The notes under the pieces: generated by a model | Database searches by the model: none | What the model was told of the DNA's origin: nothing | Seen by the model: the letters and a program-made list of their open reading frames with translations, nothing else | Shown here: piece after piece, positions 43,719 through 53,929 of the stretch | Layout of the letters: every line of letters begins with the position of its first letter | Numbering within the stretch: position 1 is the stretch's first letter | DNA from: Crocinitomicaceae bacterium | GTDB lineage: Bacteria; Bacteroidota; Bacteroidia; Flavobacteriales_G; Salibacteraceae | NCBI GenBank assembly: GCA_002713215.1 | Contig: PAVO01000020.1 | Span: 1 to 64,000, forward strand | Length of the DNA: 64,000 nucleotides | Direction: 5' to 3' | Position numbers and translations under genes: made by a program

Positions 43719-46151
43719 ATGATGAAAAGAATAAGACTTATCGACTTCCTTATTGTAACCGTAGTGACGTTGTTTTTAGTGGTCAGGGTGCATGCCCAAA
43801 CAGGTTCGGTGTCAGGTACAATCGTTGATGAAATTAGTAATGAACCCATTCCATTTGCCAATATTATAGTACAGGGAACAACGTCCGGAGCAGTAACTGA
43901 TTTTGAAGGGAAGTATAAAATTGATAACCTGAAACCAGGATTTATTCGCCTGGAAATTTCTGTTCTTGGTTATGCGAAAAGACTAAGTGAACAAATTCAA
44001 ATTATTTCAAACCGAACATCAAATTTTGATGTGAAGCTGGAAAAATCCATGCAGCAAATGGAAGAGGTGGTTATAGAATCGAGCCCATTTACGCGTAGGG
44101 ATGAAAGTCCTCTTTCCATGCAAACCATTGGTGTGGCTGAGATAGAACGAGCTGCAGGTGCCAACCGTGATATTTCTAAAGTAATTCAGTCTTTACCGGG
44201 CGTTGCAAGCACCCCGGCATTTAGAAATGATATTATTATTCGAGGTGGATCACCAAATGAAAATCGATTTTACCTGGATGAAATTGAGGTTCCAAATATT
44301 AACCATTTCCAAACCCAGGGAGCCAGCGGAGGCCCCGTTGGTTTGATAAACGTTAACCTTATCAGGGAAGTTGATTTTCAATCCGGAGCTTTCCCTGCAA
44401 ATCGAGGAAATATGCTGAGTTCGTTACTTTCCTTCAAGCAGCTCGATGGAAATAAGAATAAATTAAAAGGAAAATTTACACTGGGAAGTTCCGATTTAGG
44501 TCTCACGTTGGACGGCCCTCTTGGAAAGAAAACAACCTTCGTGTTTTCTGTCAGGCAGTCTTATTTACAATTTCTTTTTGGGGCTTTGGGTTTGCCTTTT
44601 TTGCCTACTTACTGGGATTATCAAACTAAGATTAAATACAAAATCAATAAAAAGAATGAAATTTCGCTAATAAGTATTGGGGCACTCGATAAATTCAAAC
44701 TCAATACCGAAGCTAATGAGACCAAACAGCAGCGATACATTTTGGCCAACCTTCCGGTAAATGGGCAGTGGAACTATACTATTGGTGCGGTGTACAAACA
44801 TTTTTCGGAGAATAGTTTTCAAACGTTTGTTGTAAGCAGAAACATGCTGAACAATCAAGCTTATAAATACGAGAATAATGATGAGAGTGATCCAAATGGC
44901 CTGGTACAAGATTACAAATCGCAAGAAATTGAAAACAAATTTCGGTTTGAAGATAACATTCGGTTGGGGGATTGGAAGTTAATTGTTGGTGTAAATTACG
45001 AATATGCGAAATACAACAATTCCACTTACAATCGAATTGTGATTCCGGCTTCTTCTCTCGGACCAGCAAGAATCGATACCATTGACTATAAATCCGAATT
45101 AAACCTCAATAAGTATGGAGCTTTTGTACAACTGAATCGTCGCTTTTTTGGAAGTCGCTTAAAGACTTCATTAGGGGTACGCTTTGATGGAAACGACTAC
45201 AACGAGTCCATGGCCAATCTGCTGAATCAATTCGCCCCCCGTCTGGGTATTTCCTATGGACTAAGCGATAAATGGTCGATCAATTTTGCAACTGGTAGGT
45301 TTACCCAATTACCGGCTTATACAGTAATGGGCTATCAACGAAATGGTGAATTTGTAAACCAAAAAAATGGCTTGAAGTACATTACTGCAGATCACATAAA
45401 TGGAGGAGTCGAATGGCGACCACTAGCCAGTTCAAAAATCACACTTGAAGGGTTTTATAAATTCTATCAGAATTATCCATTAAGCACCGAAAAGGGAATC
45501 AGTTTAGCCAACCTGGGTGCGGACTTTGGAATAGTTGGAAACGAGCCGGTAATTTCTGCTTCCGAGGGCAGGGCTTACGGGTTGGAATTGCTTGCACAGC
45601 AAAAGCTAACCAAGGGGTTTTATGGAATATTAAGTTATACATGGGTTAGAAGTGAATTTACCAATGCCGATGGAGCTTATGCACCATCGAGTTGGGATTC
45701 GGAGCATTTGCTCACGCTTACCGCTGGAAAAAAGTTTAAAAAGAACTGGGAGTTTGGGGCCCGTTGGCGTTATGTGAAAGGGAGGCCTTATACACCCTAT
45801 CTCGTACCTGAATCTTATTACAGAGCATCTTACGATATTAATCCAAGAGGGGTACCCGATTATACTCAGGTCAATTCTCAACGTCTGGCAGCCTTCCATC
45901 AATTGGATGTACGTGTTGATAAGACCTATAATTTTAAGAAATGGGGTTTAAACCTGTATTTGGATATCCAAAATCTGTACAATTTTCAATCGGAAGATCA
46001 GCCTATTTTATATCCGGTGGAAGATGCACAAGGAAATTTTGTTGTGAGCAATCCAAATGCACCTTACGAACAACAGATTTATGAAATGGAAGAAATTCCT
46101 AATACAACAGGTACGGTATTACCAACCATTGGGGTGATCATAGATTTTTAG
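43719..46151 (+). CDS. TonB-dependent receptor with carboxypeptidase-like regulatory domain
   Basis: An 810-residue outer-membrane receptor. After a signal peptide (about 1-26, ending VRVHAQ), residues 28-110 form a CarboxypepD_reg-like domain (SVSGTIVDEISNEPIPFANI). The plug follows (about 125-235, VIQSLPGVASTPAFRNDIIIRGG), then a 22-strand-type barrel ending PTIGVIIDF. No SusD gene is beside it, so a substrate cannot be proposed. Its 3' end overlaps the convergent lycopene cyclase gene by 14 bp. Confidence 0.92.
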   Translation: MMKRIRLIDFLIVTVVTLFLVVRVHAQTGSVSGTIVDEISNEPIPFANIIVQGTTSGAVTDFEGKYKIDNLKPGFIRLEISVLGYAKRLSEQIQIISNRTSNFDVKLEKSMQQMEEVVIESSPFTRRDESPLSMQTIGVAEIERAAGANRDISKVIQSLPGVASTPAFRNDIIIRGGSPNENRFYLDEIEVPNINHFQTQGASGGPVGLINVNLIREVDFQSGAFPANRGNMLSSLLSFKQLDGNKNKLKGKFTLGSSDLGLTLDGPLGKKTTFVFSVRQSYLQFLFGALGLPFLPTYWDYQTKIKYKINKKNEISLISIGALDKFKLNTEANETKQQRYILANLPVNGQWNYTIGAVYKHFSENSFQTFVVSRNMLNNQAYKYENNDESDPNGLVQDYKSQEIENKFRFEDNIRLGDWKLIVGVNYEYAKYNNSTYNRIVIPASSLGPARIDTIDYKSELNLNKYGAFVQLNRRFFGSRLKTSLGVRFDGNDYNESMANLLNQFAPRLGISYGLSDKWSINFATGRFTQLPAYTVMGYQRNGEFVNQKNGLKYITADHINGGVEWRPLASSKITLEGFYKFYQNYPLSTEKGISLANLGADFGIVGNEPVISASEGRAYGLELLAQQKLTKGFYGILSYTWVRSEFTNADGAYAPSSWDSEHLLTLTAGKKFKKNWEFGARWRYVKGRPYTPYLVPESYYRASYDINPRGVPDYTQVNSQRLAAFHQLDVRVDKTYNFKKWGLNLYLDIQNLYNFQSEDQPILYPVEDAQGNFVVSNPNAPYEQQIYEMEEIPNTTGTVLPTIGVIIDF

Positions 46152-46836
46152 AAAAATCGACCTTTCTGAATTTTTCGAAGAAGAAGCAGTTCCAAAGGAG
46201 TAGGTTAAATCCATAAAAGAAATCTTCTACCGGAATGGTTCCAATTCTGATATTAAGGTTTTCAGAATTGTTGTACCATACGATTTCCTGCTCAATCGCT
46301 GAGCCTGTTAGTATGCCATTTAGAATGAAAAACGGAATAAGAATAAGCAGAAATGCAATTGCGAAATGGCCAAACCATTTTGGTCGTTTTACAAAGAAGA
46401 ATAATAGGGTAGAAACGCTTAAAACACCAATTGATCCCGTATACCATAATTTAGCTCCATTGAGTAGTAAAACAAGTGCCAATAACATGAATACGATCAA
46501 AAACGGATAACTGAAACGTGTAATCCACTCCTGGTGAAAATAAGCCCGGCAAACTTCATAAGTAAACAGAGAAGCGTAAGGGATGGTGATAAAGAACAGG
46601 AGCTCTTCCAGTGGCAGGTTGATTATTGAAATGCCCAGAAGGTATTTGTTATTGAACCCCCAAATTCCCATGTAGGTGAAGGTAATGTCCCAAAGAATAA
46701 ACAGAGTTCCTACTACCACAATACTTTTAAAAAGTGCCCTTCGCTTTTTCCAAAAGGCTACTTTTTTGTCAAAGCTTAGCAATAAAACAGGAACAAATAC
46801 CACCAGGTTTATGAGTATGTAATAATAGTTTTCCAA
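46138..46836 (-). CDS. crtY: Fused lycopene cyclase (CrtYc-CrtYd type)
   Basis: A 232-residue membrane protein with about seven helices. It carries two copies of the cyclase motif: LPLEELLFF in the first half (about 75-83) and IPVEDFFYG in the second (about 198-206). The heterodimeric cyclases CrtYc and CrtYd have one each, so this is the fused form. It cyclises lycopene ends to beta-rings. As last gene of the carotenoid operon it lies 22 bp after cruF and converges on the TonB receptor with a 14-bp overlap. Confidence 0.88.
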   Translation of the reverse strand: MENYYYILINLVVFVPVLLLSFDKKVAFWKKRRALFKSIVVVGTLFILWDITFTYMGIWGFNNKYLLGISIINLPLEELLFFITIPYASLFTYEVCRAYFHQEWITRFSYPFLIVFMLLALVLLLNGAKLWYTGSIGVLSVSTLLFFFVKRPKWFGHFAIAFLLILIPFFILNGILTGSAIEQEIVWYNNSENLNIRIGTIPVEDFFYGFNLLLWNCFFFEKFRKVDFSKNL

Positions 46837-46858
46837 CTGGATTAAGATTTTATTGCCA

Positions 46859-47491
46859 TTAGAGTAATACCATCAGGATTAAGAAAAAGACGGCTTGAAT
46901 GGCAAATAAGCGTTCTGCCAAACGATTCTTTTGTTGAGGTTTATAAAACTTTTGGATTAATGAGTTGAAAATCAACGAAACCAGAAACCAACCAATAAAA
47001 TTTTGAATGGGAATGGCCTCGTGTTCCCAGTGCCAAAAGTCCAGTTTGGGTGCGACCTGTTCGAGTATAAGATCGAATGATGTCATGATTACCGATGCAA
47101 AAAGGGGTTGGATAAACCGATTGCGCGAAAAGCGAGATGCCAATTCGGTTGATCCAAAGGCAAGTATCCACCAATTAAGACCAATAATTATGGGAACTTC
47201 CATTAAAAGTGGGGTTAGTGAAGAACCGTAATGGTAATGTCCGAATGGAATTCCTGTACGGATACCGAGTAGTTCAACAAAATAGCCCAGAATGAAGATG
47301 GCAATCAAATGAAACCACTGAGATTTAACTTGCTGCATTGGAAAAATAATGATGGCTGATAAGAACAGGTTTATAGGACTAAGTACAATAAAATAACCAT
47401 GAAAAGGCGATAGGATTCCAATCAACCCAACCAGGTACAAAACCAAAAGAATAATGGTTTTTATTTTGACTGATCGGGATAAACTATCCAT
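46859..47491 (-). CDS. cruF: Carotenoid 1',2'-hydratase CruF-like
   Basis: A 210-residue integral membrane protein of the DUF422/CruF family with about six helices. FVELLGIRTGIPFGHYHYG (about 70-88) is the characteristic segment, followed by IIGLNWWILAFGS and DLILEQVAPKLDFWHW. CruF hydrates the open psi-end of carotenoids such as gamma-carotene. Together with a CrtD-like desaturase it gives the end group of myxol or saproxanthin. It overlaps crtD by 8 bp. Confidence 0.83.
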   Translation of the reverse strand: MDSLSRSVKIKTIILLVLYLVGLIGILSPFHGYFIVLSPINLFLSAIIIFPMQQVKSQWFHLIAIFILGYFVELLGIRTGIPFGHYHYGSSLTPLLMEVPIIIGLNWWILAFGSTELASRFSRNRFIQPLFASVIMTSFDLILEQVAPKLDFWHWEHEAIPIQNFIGWFLVSLIFNSLIQKFYKPQQKNRLAERLFAIQAVFFLILMVLL

Positions 47492-48950
47492 AAGAATCTG
47501 GTATTAATGAAGCGACAATTTTTGCCGAATTAAGGCAAAGGGGAATTCCACCTCCGGGATGGACACTTCCACCACAATGAAAGAGGTTTTTGACATTACC
47601 GGTGAAATTAGGATAACGCAGAAACGCAGAGAACCTGGTGTTGGAGTTGGGGCCATACAAAGCTCCCTGGTAGGCACCGGTTCTTCTTTCAATGTCGGTT
47701 GGAGTAAGCAGGTGTTCCTCGATAATGTTTTTAGAAATGGATTCATTCAGCATACGTTCAATCTTATCGATAATGGCTTTCCTTATATCAGAGATTACAT
47801 CTTGATTTTCGGATTGAGAGCTGGCAGGTGCGTTGATCATTACAAACCAATTTTCAAATCCTTCCGGAGCGTCCTGTTGGTTTATTTTGCTGCTCACATG
47901 AATGTATATAGTCGGATCGGTACTCAGTTCCTTTTTGTTAAAAATGGCTTCGAATTCAGTTTGATAATTCTCTGAGAAGAATACATTATGAATATCCAGT
48001 TGGTCAAACTTTCGATTCATTCCCCAATAAAAAATATAGGCTGAAGAAGATGGGCTTCGTTTGGTTTTTACGGGTCGTTTGTATTTGGGTTGGAGTAAAG
48101 CAGATTGAGTAAAATGTATGTCCGAGTTGCTTACAACTACATCACTTCGAACTACCTTTTTATCCAATTCAATTCCTTTGGCAATTCCATTGCAGATAAT
48201 GATTCTTTTCACTTTCTGATTGAAGTGAAAATTGATTCCTACTTCGTTAGAAAGGTCTACCAATGAGTCGATAACGCTACGCATTCCGTTGGACGGGAAA
48301 TAGGCGCCAAGATTATACTCCAAATGGGGAATAACCTGCATTAGACCAGGAGTTAGAAAGGGCGAAGAACCATTGTAAGTTGCGTACCTGTTGAACAACT
48401 GCCTTAAATGTGGGTCCTGAAAACGGCTGGAATTGGTTTCATTTAGTGTATTGAATAAGTGAAACTTTCCGATGCTAAGTAATGGTTTAAAAATATCAGC
48501 AGACAACCAGGTAGAAGCTTTGTGAAGTGATTTTTCTACAAAGGTCGGTGCCGTTAGTTCATAGAGCTGTTTACTTTCCTTCAAATATTCAAGCACTTGC
48601 TCACCGCCGTCTCCAAACTCCTGATTTACATTCTTGTTGAATTGAACTCGGTCGGCGTGGGCCCTTAACCGGTGGCCATCCTCCCAAAAATAGTTGCAGA
48701 TGTTTTTCAATCTGGTGTAGCGAAAACCGGACCTGTGATTTGGAAAAAGGTCAAACAATTCATCTACCAAATTGGGCAGAGTGAATAGGGAAGGTCCCAT
48801 ATCAAACCGAAAATCTCCTAGGGTGAGTTCAGCTATTTTTCCTCCGGGAAATGAATTGCCTTCGTAAATATCAACTTCGTACCCCTTGCTCCTGAGTCGT
48901 AAGGCACTTGCAATACCTGCTATTCCGCTCCCAATAACTATTGCTTTCAT
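47484..48950 (-). CDS. crtD: CrtI-family desaturase, probably carotenoid 3,4-desaturase CrtD
   Basis: A 488-residue FAD-dependent phytoene-desaturase family enzyme. The dinucleotide motif VIGSGIAGIASALRLRSKG is at residues 4-22 and the C-terminal HPGGGIPLCLNSAKIVA closes the FAD site. It is a paralogue of the CrtI encoded further upstream. The assignment to CrtD rests on position beside cruF and on the presence of a second desaturase paired with crtB, so it is inference. It overlaps the SRPBCC gene by 4 bp. Confidence 0.78.
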   Translation of the reverse strand: MKAIVIGSGIAGIASALRLRSKGYEVDIYEGNSFPGGKIAELTLGDFRFDMGPSLFTLPNLVDELFDLFPNHRSGFRYTRLKNICNYFWEDGHRLRAHADRVQFNKNVNQEFGDGGEQVLEYLKESKQLYELTAPTFVEKSLHKASTWLSADIFKPLLSIGKFHLFNTLNETNSSRFQDPHLRQLFNRYATYNGSSPFLTPGLMQVIPHLEYNLGAYFPSNGMRSVIDSLVDLSNEVGINFHFNQKVKRIIICNGIAKGIELDKKVVRSDVVVSNSDIHFTQSALLQPKYKRPVKTKRSPSSSAYIFYWGMNRKFDQLDIHNVFFSENYQTEFEAIFNKKELSTDPTIYIHVSSKINQQDAPEGFENWFVMINAPASSQSENQDVISDIRKAIIDKIERMLNESISKNIIEEHLLTPTDIERRTGAYQGALYGPNSNTRFSAFLRYPNFTGNVKNLFHCGGSVHPGGGIPLCLNSAKIVASLIPDSYG

Positions 48951-49417
48951 GGTTTATTATTAGGAAATAGCTTGGATAGCTTTTGGTATCGGAAGTCAAA
49001 AATTTCTTTGATTCTTTTACCGACAAAGAGTTTGTGAGCCAGTTCTCCAATTATGCCCAATGGAAGTACATAAAGAAGCTTGTCAATCATTTTAACACCC
49101 TGTTCATGTATTTCGAAATGATGTTCATGGTGCCAGATGGCGTATGGTCCAATGCGTTGTTCATCAATAAAATAGTGATTCGTTTTAACGTTGGTGATCT
49201 CTGTAAGCCAGGTTACTGGAATGTTTAAAATCGGCTTAATTTGATATTCGATCATCATACCTTCGTACATCCCATCCCTTGGTACATTCGAGCGAATTTT
49301 AAACAACAGGTTATCCGGGGTAATGGAATTTAAATTGGCTGGATTCGAGAAGAATTTCCAGGCTTCTTCAAGTTCAATTGGAAGGATTTGTTCCTTATAA
49401 AGGGAGTACACTTTCAT
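48947..49417 (-). CDS. SRPBCC family protein in the carotenoid operon
   Basis: A 156-residue START/SRPBCC-fold protein, a fold that binds hydrophobic ligands in a deep pocket. YSLYKEQILPIELEEAWKFFSNPANLNSITP at the start (key part EEAWKFFSNPANLNSITP) and WHHEHHFEIHEQGVKMIDKL are typical of the group once called cell division inhibitor-like. There is no catalytic assignment. It sits inside the crt operon with 4-bp overlap to crtD, which suggests a role in handling carotenoids or their intermediates; this is inference. Confidence 0.8.
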   Translation of the reverse strand: MKVYSLYKEQILPIELEEAWKFFSNPANLNSITPDNLLFKIRSNVPRDGMYEGMMIEYQIKPILNIPVTWLTEITNVKTNHYFIDEQRIGPYAIWHHEHHFEIHEQGVKMIDKLLYVLPLGIIGELAHKLFVGKRIKEIFDFRYQKLSKLFPNNKP

Positions 49418-49491
49418 GCCTTAGGGACAACTTAAAGCACTTAAGGTTCATTGGTGCAGGTGAATTAGTAGTTCTAAAGAATCGGAACAGG

Positions 49492-50022
49492 TCAGGCAGC
49501 ATTTCTTTTTATCTCCAAATGCTCAACAACCAAGGGAAATGCGATTTTAAACCAGGGTGTGTATGTATCAGGATGAAGTTTTAGATCGGATTTTAGTGCT
49601 TCGACGTTTGCGAATTTCCACGCTTTAATTTCATTGGGATTAGCGTCAACAGGGCCATTATAATTGCCGATAAATACATGATCAAATTCATGTTCAACCA
49701 GCCCCTCACCAACTTCTGATTTATAAACAAAATCAAAAACTTTGCGGATGTTGCACGTGAAACCAAGTTCTTCGTGCAATCGACGTTTAGCTCCAACTAC
49801 GGTGCTTTCGTTTAGACGAGGATGGCTGCAGCAGGCATTGGTCCACAATCCACCGCAGTGATATTTAGATAAGGCTCTTTGGTGAATAAGCATTTCGCCT
49901 TTGGAATTGAAAATGAAAACAGAAAAGGCACGATGTAAGAAGCCAAATTGGTGTGCTTCTATTTTATCCATGGTCGCAATTGGGCGGTCGTTTTGATCAA
50001 CAAGTACTACGCTATTATCCAT
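49492..50022 (-). CDS. idi: Isopentenyl-diphosphate delta-isomerase, type I
   Basis: A 176-residue Nudix-fold isomerase interconverting IPP and DMAPP. Active-site Cys is in WTNACCSHPRLNES (about 61-74) and the catalytic Glu region is KRRLHEELGF (about 80-89). ALSKYHCGGLWTN before it is typical. It lies 15 bp after crtB and probably increases DMAPP supply for carotenoid synthesis. Confidence 0.95.
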   Translation of the reverse strand: MDNSVVLVDQNDRPIATMDKIEAHQFGFLHRAFSVFIFNSKGEMLIHQRALSKYHCGGLWTNACCSHPRLNESTVVGAKRRLHEELGFTCNIRKVFDFVYKSEVGEGLVEHEFDHVFIGNYNGPVDANPNEIKAWKFANVEALKSDLKLHPDTYTPWFKIAFPLVVEHLEIKRNAA

Positions 50023-50037
50023 GTTGTTAAATTTAAA

Positions 50038-50874
50038 TTAGAGAATTCCAATATTGTGTCTTATGTATGATTGCATAAAAAGAAAATACTTACCCGTGTT
50101 TGGGATTCTAATTCTCTCCTTCATGATTCTTTTGCTGGGAATCGATTGAATTTTTTTGAAAAGGCCGTAATAATAAACGTACGCCAGGTAAACGCCGAAT
50201 CGAGCCCGTTTGGGTAGCCCCAGAATCCCCTTGAAACCTTCTTTAAAATCGGATTTAATATCCATTTCAATGTCAATTTTATTCTGTTCGGTTAGTGTAG
50301 AAATATCTATGTCGGGAAAGTAATTTCTTCCCAGGGTATTGTAGTCTTCCTTTATGTCTCTTAAGAAATTAATCTTTTGAAATGCAGACCCCAGTTTCAT
50401 GGCATTCGGTTTAAGTTTCAGGAATAAATCCTGATCACCTAGTGTAAAAATATTTAAACACATTAGACCAACAACTTCAGCAGAACCAAGGATATATTTC
50501 TCGTATTCTTTTTGGTCGTATTCCCGATCATCCAAATCCATTTCCATGCTATTTAAAAAGGTGTCAATAAATTCCAGGTCAATCTGATATTCAGTAACCG
50601 TAGCCTGAAATGAGTTTAGGATGGGGTTGAGGCTTATTCCTTGTTCAATGGCTTTGTAGGTGTCTTGTCGAAGTTCTTCAAGCAGTCTTCTTTTATCGTA
50701 GCCATGGAAAGAGTCTACGATTTCATCGGCAAGCCGAACGAAACCATATACCGAATGAACCGCATTTCGAATTTCTGAATCAAGGAATCGAATGCCCAAT
50801 GAAAAAGAAGTAGAATAGGTGTTGGTGGTGAGCTGGCTGCATTGATAGGATACGGAATCAAATAGTGCTTTCAT
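50038..50874 (-). CDS. crtB: Phytoene synthase
   Basis: A 278-residue squalene/phytoene synthase that condenses two GGPP. The first Asp-rich motif is DEIVDS (about 48-53) and the second is RDIKEDYNTLGRNYFP (about 171-186), both of the required D-x-x-x-D form. The start overlaps crtI by 17 bp. A geranylgeranyl diphosphate synthase gene is not in the window. Confidence 0.94.
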   Translation of the reverse strand: MKALFDSVSYQCSQLTTNTYSTSFSLGIRFLDSEIRNAVHSVYGFVRLADEIVDSFHGYDKRRLLEELRQDTYKAIEQGISLNPILNSFQATVTEYQIDLEFIDTFLNSMEMDLDDREYDQKEYEKYILGSAEVVGLMCLNIFTLGDQDLFLKLKPNAMKLGSAFQKINFLRDIKEDYNTLGRNYFPDIDISTLTEQNKIDIEMDIKSDFKEGFKGILGLPKRARFGVYLAYVYYYGLFKKIQSIPSKRIMKERIRIPNTGKYFLFMQSYIRHNIGIL

Positions 50875-52354
50875 AAACTTGGGTTTTTTCCTGATTAATA
50901 ATGAGTGATGAAACTACTTTACCAGATATGAGTGCCGGGGGAACTCCAGGTCCCGGAATAGTTAATTGACCGGTATAAAAAAGATTGTTTAGTTTTTGGT
51001 TTCGCATTTTGGGCTTAAGAAATGCCGTCTGCTTTAGAGTGTTTGCAAGGCCGTAAGCATTGCCGCGATAGGCGTTGTATTCGTTTTTAAAATCATTGAC
51101 AGCAAAACTTCGCTTGTAAATGATGTGTTCCTTAATGTTACTCTTGGTATGCGTTTCAAGCCGGTTGATTAAGAGTTCGAAATATTTTTCCCGGGTTTGG
51201 TTATCGTCTTTCAAATCAGGTGCAATAGGCATAAGAACAAATAGGTTTTCGCATCCCTTCGGTGCAACCGTTGAATCTGTTTTAGAAGGTGCACACACGT
51301 AAAAGAGTGGGTCACTGGGCCATTTTTCATCGTTGTAGATTTCGTGGGCATGATTTTCGAAATCAGCATCAAAAAAGAGGTTGTGATGGTCGAGGTTTTC
51401 CACCTTCTTGTCAATTCCTAAGTAAAACAGAAGGCTTGAAGGTGCCATGGTTCTCTTGCTCCAGTAGTTGAGGGAGTAGTTTCGGTTTTCGGTTTGAAGC
51501 AGTTGTGTTTCTACATGATGATAATCGGCTCCCGCCACAACCACGTCAGCATGAAATAATCCCTTTGGGGTTTCAACTCCTAACGCACTTTTACCCATGC
51601 TGGGAATAAAGTTTACCGGTGAATTTAAATGAAACGTTACACCATGTTTCTTTGCAATGAAGGTCATGGCATCAATAATTTTTGACATTCCACCTTTTGG
51701 GTACCAGGTGCCCAATTCCATGTCGGCATAATTCATTAAGCTATAAAGTGCCGGAGTGTTTTTTGGTTTCGCTCCTAAGAACAATACCGGGAATTCCAGG
51801 AGTTGATGAATTTTAGGATGCTTGAAATACTTTCTTATTAGTGAGCTTATGGACCCGAATAGTTGAAGTTTAATGCTCCCAAGTAGTATTTCGTTCTCTA
51901 AAAACTCACTTATTCGTTCCGAGGGTTTGTATACCAACTTATTTATTCCTACCTGATATTTGTACTCCGCATCCTTTAAGAATGCTTCCAGTTGTTGACC
52001 GGAATTGGGTTCAATGGAATCGAAAAGCTCCATTAGTTCATTCTTATCGGAGGGGAGATCTATGTGGTCGTTTTCTTCGAAAAAGACGCGGTAAGAAGGG
52101 GATAGTCTTACAAGCTCGTAGAAGTCTTTGCTTTGAAATCCGAAGTCGCTGAAAAACCTTTCAAACACGTCAGGCATCCAATACCAGCTTGGTCCCATGT
52201 CGAATGTAAATCCATCTGATTCAAATTTTCTTGCCCGACCACCAATGGATTCATTTTTTTCAAATACATGAACGTTAAACCCTTCCTTCGCTAAGTAGCA
52301 AGCTGCCGATAAACCAGCAAAACCAGAACCGATAACTGCAACTGTTTTATGCAT
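50858..52354 (-). CDS. crtI: Phytoene desaturase
   Basis: A 498-residue FAD-dependent desaturase converting phytoene to lycopene. The N-terminal dinucleotide motif VIGSGFAGLSAACYLAKEG is at 6-24, followed by FDMGPSWYWMPDVF. The C-terminal GPGVPPALISGKVVS is typical of CrtI. Adjacent to crtB with a 17-bp overlap, and overlapping the sigma factor gene by 8 bp, so expression of all three is coupled. Confidence 0.92.
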   Translation of the reverse strand: MHKTVAVIGSGFAGLSAACYLAKEGFNVHVFEKNESIGGRARKFESDGFTFDMGPSWYWMPDVFERFFSDFGFQSKDFYELVRLSPSYRVFFEENDHIDLPSDKNELMELFDSIEPNSGQQLEAFLKDAEYKYQVGINKLVYKPSERISEFLENEILLGSIKLQLFGSISSLIRKYFKHPKIHQLLEFPVLFLGAKPKNTPALYSLMNYADMELGTWYPKGGMSKIIDAMTFIAKKHGVTFHLNSPVNFIPSMGKSALGVETPKGLFHADVVVAGADYHHVETQLLQTENRNYSLNYWSKRTMAPSSLLFYLGIDKKVENLDHHNLFFDADFENHAHEIYNDEKWPSDPLFYVCAPSKTDSTVAPKGCENLFVLMPIAPDLKDDNQTREKYFELLINRLETHTKSNIKEHIIYKRSFAVNDFKNEYNAYRGNAYGLANTLKQTAFLKPKMRNQKLNNLFYTGQLTIPGPGVPPALISGKVVSSLIINQEKTQVYESTI

Positions 52355-52859
52355 TGGGTCTGAAGTCTTGAAGTTTAGAAGTCAATTCTTTCCGGGCCAG
52401 AAATATTCTTGATTTTACGGTACCGAGTGGAATTCCCATATGATCTCCAATTTCGTGATACTTAAAGCCATTGAGCTTCATTTGAAAGGGTATCCTCAGT
52501 TCATCATTGAGTTTCTCTATTTGAAACTCCATGTCTGAAACATTCAAGTTTCGGTCGGGAGTGATAGACAGGTTGGACGAAGAGCTTGATAGGTAGTTTT
52601 TGGATTCCAACGTCTGCATGATCTCGCCCAATTTGCGAGACCTTCTATACTGATTAATAAAGGTGTTTTTCATGATGGTATAGAGCCAGGATTTAACCGA
52701 TGTACTGGCTTCAACCTTTTCCTTGTATTGCAAAGCCTTCATCATGGTTTCCTGCAACAAGTCCTGCGCGTCATCATCATTTGAAGTGAGCTTGAGCGCA
52801 AAAAAATGAAGCGGATTTTGGTACTTAACGAGTAGCTTGTTTAATTCCATGGTAGACAT
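52347..52859 (-). CDS. ECF-type RNA polymerase sigma factor
   Basis: A 170-residue sigma-70 family factor with region 2 (about 10-75, DAQDLLQETMMKAL, SVKSWLYTIMKNTFINQYRR) and region 4 (about 118-165, KYHEIGDHMGIPLGTVKSRIF). No regions 1 or 3 are present, as in ECF factors, and no anti-sigma gene is adjacent. It is the first gene of the crt run and overlaps crtI by 8 bp. It may direct polymerase to carotenoid or light-response promoters, but its targets are unknown. Two palindromes lie just upstream. Confidence 0.9.
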   Translation of the reverse strand: MSTMELNKLLVKYQNPLHFFALKLTSNDDDAQDLLQETMMKALQYKEKVEASTSVKSWLYTIMKNTFINQYRRSRKLGEIMQTLESKNYLSSSSSNLSITPDRNLNVSDMEFQIEKLNDELRIPFQMKLNGFKYHEIGDHMGIPLGTVKSRIFLARKELTSKLQDFRPNA

Positions 52860-52861
52860 AA

Positions 52862-52891
52862 TGTTTAACTATTAATTAAAAAGATTAAACA
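52862..52891. promoter_or_regulatory. Candidate operator 1, TGTTTAA-N16-TTAAACA
   Basis: Inverted half-sites at 52862-52868 and 52885-52891 are separated by exactly 16 bp. The site covers the 5' leader of the sigma gene and overlaps its predicted -7 box, the usual place for a repressor. It is in very AT-rich sequence. Confidence 0.6.
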
Positions 52892-52897
52892 AAAGTA
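52890..52897 (-). promoter_or_regulatory. -7 box of the sigma factor-crt operon
   Basis: Read on the minus strand this is TACTTTTG, a match to TAnnTTTG, 31 bp before the sigma gene ATG. No good TTG -33 element is seen at 19 bp. It overlaps the right half-site of operator 1. Confidence 0.6.
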
Positions 52898-52924
52898 GAT
52901 ATATTTTTACTCGAAACGTAGTAT

Positions 52925-52954
52925 TGTTTAATAAAAAGTTAAAATAATTAAACA
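52925..52954. promoter_or_regulatory. Candidate operator 2, TGTTTAA-N16-TTAAACA
   Basis: Half-sites at 52925-52931 and 52948-52954 with the same 16-bp spacing as operator 1. The two sites start 63 bp apart, about six helical turns, so they face the same side of the DNA. Confidence 0.6.
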
Positions 52955-53044
52955 AAAATTAAAAACACCTTAAGGCGCACTGGTAATACTAGAGATAAAA
53001 GCCCAGTTAGCCTCGCTTAGAGGGAAGGAATGAAGTAATTGAAA

Positions 53045-53929
53045 TTAGTTTAGGTAATTAATGAAATCGTCTACTCCACTAATACTTAATGTAGTTGAGG
53101 TAATTTTTAGTTGCGCCTCGCGTCCCTTTATTCCAGCAATAAGAAACTTGCAATGGGGGAAAGAATTGGTATTTTGTTTAATGATTTTCTGAATTTGTTC
53201 ATCAGTTCTGCTGGCGGTAAGTATTGTAAGAAGATGACTTGGACTTGTATAGTCTACAACCGCCTGTAGGTCAACATGTGGAACATTCTGTCCCAGGTAG
53301 TATACCTGATAACCTCTCACCTTTAATATATAATAGGCCATTAACAGACCAATTTCATGATGTTCATCCTGTGGTAAAAAAAGCACATACGAATCAGTTT
53401 GACTAACCTGGTCGTTCAAATTGTCAATGGCAGCCAGCATTTTTTGTCGAATCAGGTTCGAAACAAAATGTTCCTGCGCAGGGTTAATTTCATTTACCCC
53501 CCACATTATACCGATCTTGGCGAGGAAGGGGTAAATCAGTTTAACTATGGTATGTTCGAAGCCTTTTTGATGAAGTGACTTGGCATAGATTTGATTGAAT
53601 TTCTTTTCATCTAACTCCACCATTGCTATACACAGACCGGTAAGGAAAGGTTCCAGTTCTTTATCTATCTCGACTGCAGCGTTTAACGAATCCTGTACTT
53701 CATGATTCAGTTGGTCGTCGTTTAATTGGCTAACCTTGGAAATCTTTGATCCTTTCTGAAGGAGTAAGGTTACGTTCAACAATTTTCTTAAATCGTTATC
53801 GCTGTAATACCTGATATTGGTATCGGTGCGTTCCGGATTCAGGATATTGTAACGTTTTTCCCATATACGAATCGTATGAGCTTTTATTCCGGTAAGCCTT
53901 TCCAGGTCTTTAATTTGATATTTACGCAC
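53045..53929 (-). CDS. MerR-family regulator with cobalamin-binding domain (CarH/LitR-like photoreceptor)
   Basis: A 294-residue regulator. The N-terminal MerR DNA-binding domain is at 1-70 (YQIKDLERLTGIKAHTIRIWEKRY, given in part: TGIKAHTIRIWEKRY). The middle four-helix bundle has Trp143-x9-Glu153-His154, the light-sensing W-x9-EH signature of CarH. The B12-binding Rossmann domain has E189-x-H191-x-x-G194 (EHHEIG), with His191 as the predicted lower cobalt ligand. CarH represses carotenoid genes in the dark when bound to adenosylcobalamin and releases DNA in light. GTG start at 53929 with GGGAGG upstream. It lies 185 bp upstream of the sigma gene on the same strand. Confidence 0.9.
   Translation of the reverse strand: MRKYQIKDLERLTGIKAHTIRIWEKRYNILNPERTDTNIRYYSDNDLRKLLNVTLLLQKGSKISKVSQLNDDQLNHEVQDSLNAAVEIDKELEPFLTGLCIAMVELDEKKFNQIYAKSLHQKGFEHTIVKLIYPFLAKIGIMWGVNEINPAQEHFVSNLIRQKMLAAIDNLNDQVSQTDSYVLFLPQDEHHEIGLLMAYYILKVRGYQVYYLGQNVPHVDLQAVVDYTSPSHLLTILTASRTDEQIQKIIKQNTNSFPHCKFLIAGIKGREAQLKITSTTLSISGVDDFINYLN

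Follow-up and report, generated by a model that had tools for sequence, protein, structure and literature searches.

Paired inverted repeats as a probable operator of a CarH-like regulator in Bacteroidia

Among B12 photoreceptors, CarH serves as the model, and the few operators that have been characterised for it all consist of direct repeats and come from other phyla. These operators are built from half-sites with the core TnnACA, arranged as tandem direct repeats at 11-bp steps (PMC9304148). The LitR/CarH family is nevertheless able to use other arrangements, as the class II LitR sites of Pseudomonas (TGTACA-N12-TGTACA) indicate. No CarH operator of Bacteroidota was found in the searchable literature, with most subscription papers lying out of reach. 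In the wider MerR family, classical sites consist of one dyad located between −35 and −10. A general statement on classical MerR operators is available (PMC8156234).

Here, we analysed a 64,000-nucleotide stretch of Crocinitomicaceae DNA (the window), in which two palindromes lie between a carH-like gene and a sigma factor gene followed by carotenoid genes. Judging from the DNA and its comparison across relatives, we put the probability at about 0.85 that the paired palindromes represent an operator of new architecture for the dark-state CarH repressor.

The locus and its CarH-like regulator

On the minus strand, the gene order is carH (53929-53045), a gap of 185 bp, the sigma gene (52859-52347), crtI, crtB and more carotenoid genes. 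The features referred to below are as follows.

53045-53929, minus strand: CarH-like regulator with MerR DNA-binding, four-helix and Rossmann B12-binding domains and the motifs Wx9EH and ExHxxG
52965-52978, minus strand: weak terminator-like hairpin between carH and the putative operator (pattern scan, 1 versus 0.1 in shuffles)
52925-52954, minus strand: distal palindrome TGTTTAA-N16-TTAAACA, exact match, just upstream of the promoter
52890-52897, minus strand: predicted −7 box TACTTTTG (consensus TAnnTTTG), its last bases shared with the proximal palindrome
52862-52891, minus strand: proximal palindrome TGTTTAA-N16-TTAAACA, exact match, conserved in relatives
52347-52859, minus strand: ECF-type sigma factor, whose gene is the first to follow the putative operator (Pfam Sigma70_r2 and r4_2)
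50858-52354, minus strand: crtI-like phytoene desaturase, sharing 8 bp with the sigma gene (Pfam amino oxidase family; ORF coordinates)
50038-50874, minus strand: crtB-like phytoene synthase (Pfam SQS_PSY)
46138-50022, minus strand: remaining co-directional carotenoid cluster, comprising NUDIX (idi-like), SRPBCC-like, second desaturase-like, Caroten_synth and lycopene cyclase genes (Pfam, ORF list)

By sequence, the regulator of the window belongs with CarH. Its N-terminus matched Pfam MerR_1 (2.7e-17) and its C-terminus B12-binding_2 (8.8e-10), the B12-binding family scoring just 19.9 bits, under its cut-off. The closest solved relatives were 5c8d and 3whp (E about 4e-20), which are Thermus CarH/LitR, and the alignment with CarH 5c8d (E 4.6e-20) spanned both cobalamin-binding domains. 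The motif Wx9EH is present as WGVNEINPAQEH at residue 143 and the lower axial His motif (ExHxxG) as EHHEIG at 189; in the alignment of 85 homologues, Wx9EH was intact in 82 and the lower axial His in 84. Three CarH homologues (at L011, L012 and L084) carry an altered Wx9EH, with W replaced by F or H by R, and direct light sensing may be changed or lost in them. The recognition helix RIWEKRY, whose R, W, E and R residues were invariant in the 85 homologues, fits the RxWERRY-like helix of the LitR/CarH family. Within the DNA-binding domain, the recognition helix of Bacteroidia CarH proteins begins with a near-invariant KAHT (SAEV in Thermus), and their wing carries a near-invariant TNIR (GGHR in Thermus).

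Two palindromes at a predicted sigma-A promoter

The earlier note had described the two palindromes as identical and as starting 63 bp apart. The coordinates confirmed the distance, and the arms are indeed the same and exact in both copies, whereas the 16-bp spacers differ (CTATTAATTAAAAAGA versus TAAAAAGTTAAAATAA). The end of the proximal palindrome is separated by 2 bp from the ATG of the sigma gene (52859). Two exact matches were present in the window versus 0.00 expected from 100 dinucleotide shuffles, and the 5.03-Mb genome contains no further exact copy; the four other matches with one mismatch genome-wide are at background level (three for the reversed control). With up to three mismatches, the window yielded 11 matches versus 12.8 by chance, so that the significance is carried by the exact matches and by conservation.

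The −7 box of Bacteroidota sigma-A promoters has the consensus TAnnTTTG and is placed at −12 to −5 (PMC9723704). As the earlier note had proposed, one palindrome overlaps such a box: TACTTTTG (52897-52890, minus strand) fits the consensus and ends in a G that forms position 2 of the TGTTTAA arm. With the box set at this position (PMC9723704), transcription is predicted to start at about 52885, and the proximal palindrome would extend from about −6 to +24. A clear −33 TTG was looked for in the window promoter and no good one was seen. Among the 29 regions with palindromes 62-65 bp apart, 22 have an exact TAnnTTTG and 22 a TTG located 17-22 bp upstream, mostly 19-20 bp. The column frequencies across relatives likewise displayed T-A-n-n-T-T-T-G in the proximal arm and TTG after the distal site; the distal palindrome lies just upstream of the −33 element.

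One scan of genome contigs gave a single close relative, and whole genomes were hence searched. Homologues of carH were found in 47 of 60 relatives (a few of them weak matches to the DNA-binding domain alone) and in 253 of 395 genomes of the class (E <= 1e-20), about two thirds. The palindrome recurs in the carH-sigma intergenic regions of most relatives examined, usually as a pair. At a threshold of at least 13 of 14 arm positions, the 56 carH-sigma regions contained 83 palindromes with N16 versus 0.07 in shuffles, 15 with N17, and none with N11 to N15 or N18. Tabulated by column, 41 distal and 41 proximal sites gave a symmetric extended consensus, TTTGTTTAAcnTTT...AAAngTTAAACA, and the spacing of 62-65 bp between palindromes was kept within the family. 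According to the earlier note, its reading would be refuted if relatives did not conserve half-sites and spacing; half-site, N16 and pairing turned out to be kept in both family and class. At one locus (L019, genome G030), an insertion element with a transposase-like ORF between carH and sigma apparently breaks the distal palindrome and leaves the proximal copy.

We give practically no credence to a reading in which the palindromes arise by chance or as structural AT-rich repeats, such as RNA hairpins. The region is AT-rich and the count at three mismatches is at chance level, but the two exact copies and the fixed spacing conserved throughout the class speak against chance, and the distal copy, being upstream of the predicted start, would be outside the transcript.

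Every arm contains the known CarH core, as TAAACA inside TTAAACA. In the 56 regions, facing TGTnnA/TnnACA pairs formed a sharp single peak at a distance of 24, with 89 occurrences. The usual CarH operator of 11-bp direct repeats, with the palindrome as an AT-rich by-product, could find support in the 11-bp-spaced TTAA words to which the earlier note had pointed (52928/52939 and 52948/52959) and in 16 same-strand TnnACA pairs 11 bp apart in the 56 regions. The TTAA words are present in the window but were not kept as CarH-type repeats in relatives, and the TnnACA pairs apparently come mostly from the proximal half-site together with the Thr codon in MST, the N-terminus of sigma; at the distal sites, which are non-coding, an 11-bp partner was not seen. 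Moreover, the 56 regions contained no TnnACA triple at 11-bp steps, and at the position 11 bp into the palindrome, where a C would be expected, only 5% of distal and 15% of proximal sites have one. These results make the direct-repeat alternative, which the earlier note had kept in view, quite unlikely. On the spacing counts in the same regions, both direct-repeat and variable-spacer arrangements were rejected, N17 excepted.

In a search for twin palindromes that ignored carH, the distances between the two copies fell at 41-45, 51-55 and 62-67 bp, with two cases at 58 and one at 60. A spacing of 107 bp at L050 proved to be an artefact of the pair-picking rule, the same region having a 44-bp pair, and the 109-bp spacing at L049 is probably the same artefact. 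Family-level values fitted a helical period of 10.4-10.5 bp (R = 0.54 at 10.5 bp; P = 0.0005 for the fixed period and 0.03 when periods of 9-12 were scanned). This is suggestive of both palindromes lying on the same side of the DNA, as if CarH molecules touched each other or one tetramer bridged the sites.

The spacing also bears on the possibility that CarH acts as an activator, with the distal palindrome as a MerR-type activator site and repression exerted by the proximal one alone. Classical MerR proteins are able to activate, and the distal site does lie upstream of −33. However, both the −7 box and the start site fall within the proximal palindrome, the distal one shifts by roughly whole helical turns, and the CarH proteins of the cited papers are repressors. 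The layout also departs from classical MerR promoters, where one dyad lies between −35 and −10: here the proximal dyad is approximately at the start site and the distal one upstream of −33, neither falling between −33 and −7. We therefore regard an activator role as very unlikely.

Association with carH and other genes carrying the site

Two patterns blind to carH, the twin palindrome and a promoter-embedded single palindrome, were run against the 395 class genomes. The twin pattern matched in 48 genomes and the promoter-embedded pattern in 76, which together made 99 genomes; the reversed control pattern had no match in the 395. Homologues of carH were present in 96 of the 99 pattern-positive genomes versus 253 of 395 overall (P about 2e-18, shared ancestry ignored), and the sites track CarH even when carH sits elsewhere in the genome. 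Exact matches to these strict patterns are absent from over half of the genomes with carH. The three pattern-positive genomes in which carH was not detected are G193, G320 and G408; the match in G408 is likely due to chance, the carotenoid genes of the window all being absent nearby.

Such an association is not binding, and the palindromes might be read by another transcription factor that travels together with carotenoid and light genes; G193 and G320 (77% completeness) have a promoter-embedded site, yet the search for CarH found none there. In these two genomes the repressor may be lost, absent from the assembly, or replaced. Against another factor, the pattern occurred in 85 of 209 crtI-bearing genomes with carH versus 1 of 25 without (P about 1e-4, shared ancestry ignored), sites are found at carH-crtI loci without a sigma gene and upstream of carH itself, and the TnnACA core agrees with known CarH sites. 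We consider a factor other than CarH unlikely.

The sites are located upstream of the sigma gene, both beside carH and far from it, and upstream of crtI or carH at carH-crtI loci without a nearby sigma gene. Further targets confirmed by Pfam encode bacteriorhodopsin-like proteins, photolyases, fasciclin proteins and DUF4397 proteins; carotene-hydroxylase-like (crtZ-like) and SRPBCC-like targets were assigned by sequence resemblance alone, with no Pfam match. That a blind DNA pattern returned light and pigment genes strongly supports a light-linked regulator. The palindrome adjoins bacteriorhodopsin-like genes at L116/L146, L165, L172, L180 and L188, in L116 between the rhodopsin gene and a beta-carotene dioxygenase gene, and CarH control of rhodopsin is predicted from it. 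DUF4397-type proteins are a recurrent target (L121, L153, L194 and L198, of which L121 and L194 were run against Pfam). The SRPBCC-like protein of the window (48947-49417) has no Pfam match, and similar proteins adjoin the palindrome in L161 and L179.

Fasciclin-domain (FAS1) proteins were found at seven loci in six genomes (L036, L117/L147, L123/L148, L181, L182, L185 and L196); they recur in several families of the bacteria, mostly carry secretion signals, and have the palindrome at their promoters. The algal FAS1 protein AstaP binds carotenoids, whereas the cyanobacterial homologue tested in the same study did not (PMC10147662). In view of AstaP, the fasciclin targets may be carotenoid-binding or photoprotective, and they offer a testable link to carotenoid-binding FAS1 proteins.

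Proposed mechanism and comparison with known operators

The earlier note had proposed an operator for the adjoining CarH-like protein that is unlike the Thermus arrangement. Conservation and co-occurrence with CarH support this probable assignment. The observed sites, their conservation, their overlap with the promoter and the association seen with CarH, with light genes and with carotenoid genes are consistent with the following scheme, in which CarH binding, repression, dependence on B12 and light, and cooperation of the palindromes are predicted, binding and the response to B12 and light being carried over from the CarH family. In the dark, AdoCbl-bound CarH would occupy both palindromes and repress the sigma-carotenoid operon. 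Occupation of the proximal palindrome would cover the −7 box and start site, and occupation of the distal one the stretch immediately before −33, which would keep sigma-A RNA polymerase from starting the sigma-crtI-crtB operon. Light would cleave the Co-C bond of AdoCbl and release CarH, upon which the sigma factor and carotenoid enzymes would be produced.

A more speculative extension, which we consider possible but doubtful, is that Bacteroidia CarH, on same-face palindromes 4, 5 or 6 turns apart, clamps the sigma-A promoter in a nucleoprotein loop opened by light, and that it governs a class-wide B12 light regulon including rhodopsin, photolyase and also secreted fasciclins, of which some may bind carotenoids. 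With a fixed site that can be searched for, light-controlled genes can be predicted at once, rhodopsin and photolyase among them.

Compared with known systems, the putative operator shares with classical MerR operators a MerR-type domain in the regulator and a palindromic site, and differs in having two palindromes of 30 bp that both flank the promoter and cover it. Class II LitR of Pseudomonas (PmlR2/PplR1), with the sites T(G/A)TACA-N12-TGTA(C/T)A, also belongs to the LitR/CarH family and uses paired symmetric elements at two sites (−35 and after the start); its core is another one, its spacer is N12, and light is sensed by a LOV protein with no direct B12 sensing (PMC9758184). At Pcrt of Myxococcus xanthus, an operator of about 55 bp for CarA/CarH lies across the promoter and was once read as two inverted repeats for two dimers (PMC9304148). 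There, the inverted repeats lack conservation and a direct-repeat reading is now favoured (PMC9304148), whereas the present putative operator has strictly conserved inverted repeats and no direct repeats. The CarH operators of Thermus thermophilus and Bacillus megaterium (PMC9304148, PMC8156234) resemble the present one in the CarH-family regulator, the TnnACA core, the overlap with a primary-sigma promoter and the control of carotenoid genes. They consist of three to four tandem 11-bp direct repeats, in contrast to the facing half-sites with N16 in two separate palindromes found here, which raises the question of one protein family reading both direct and inverted half-sites.
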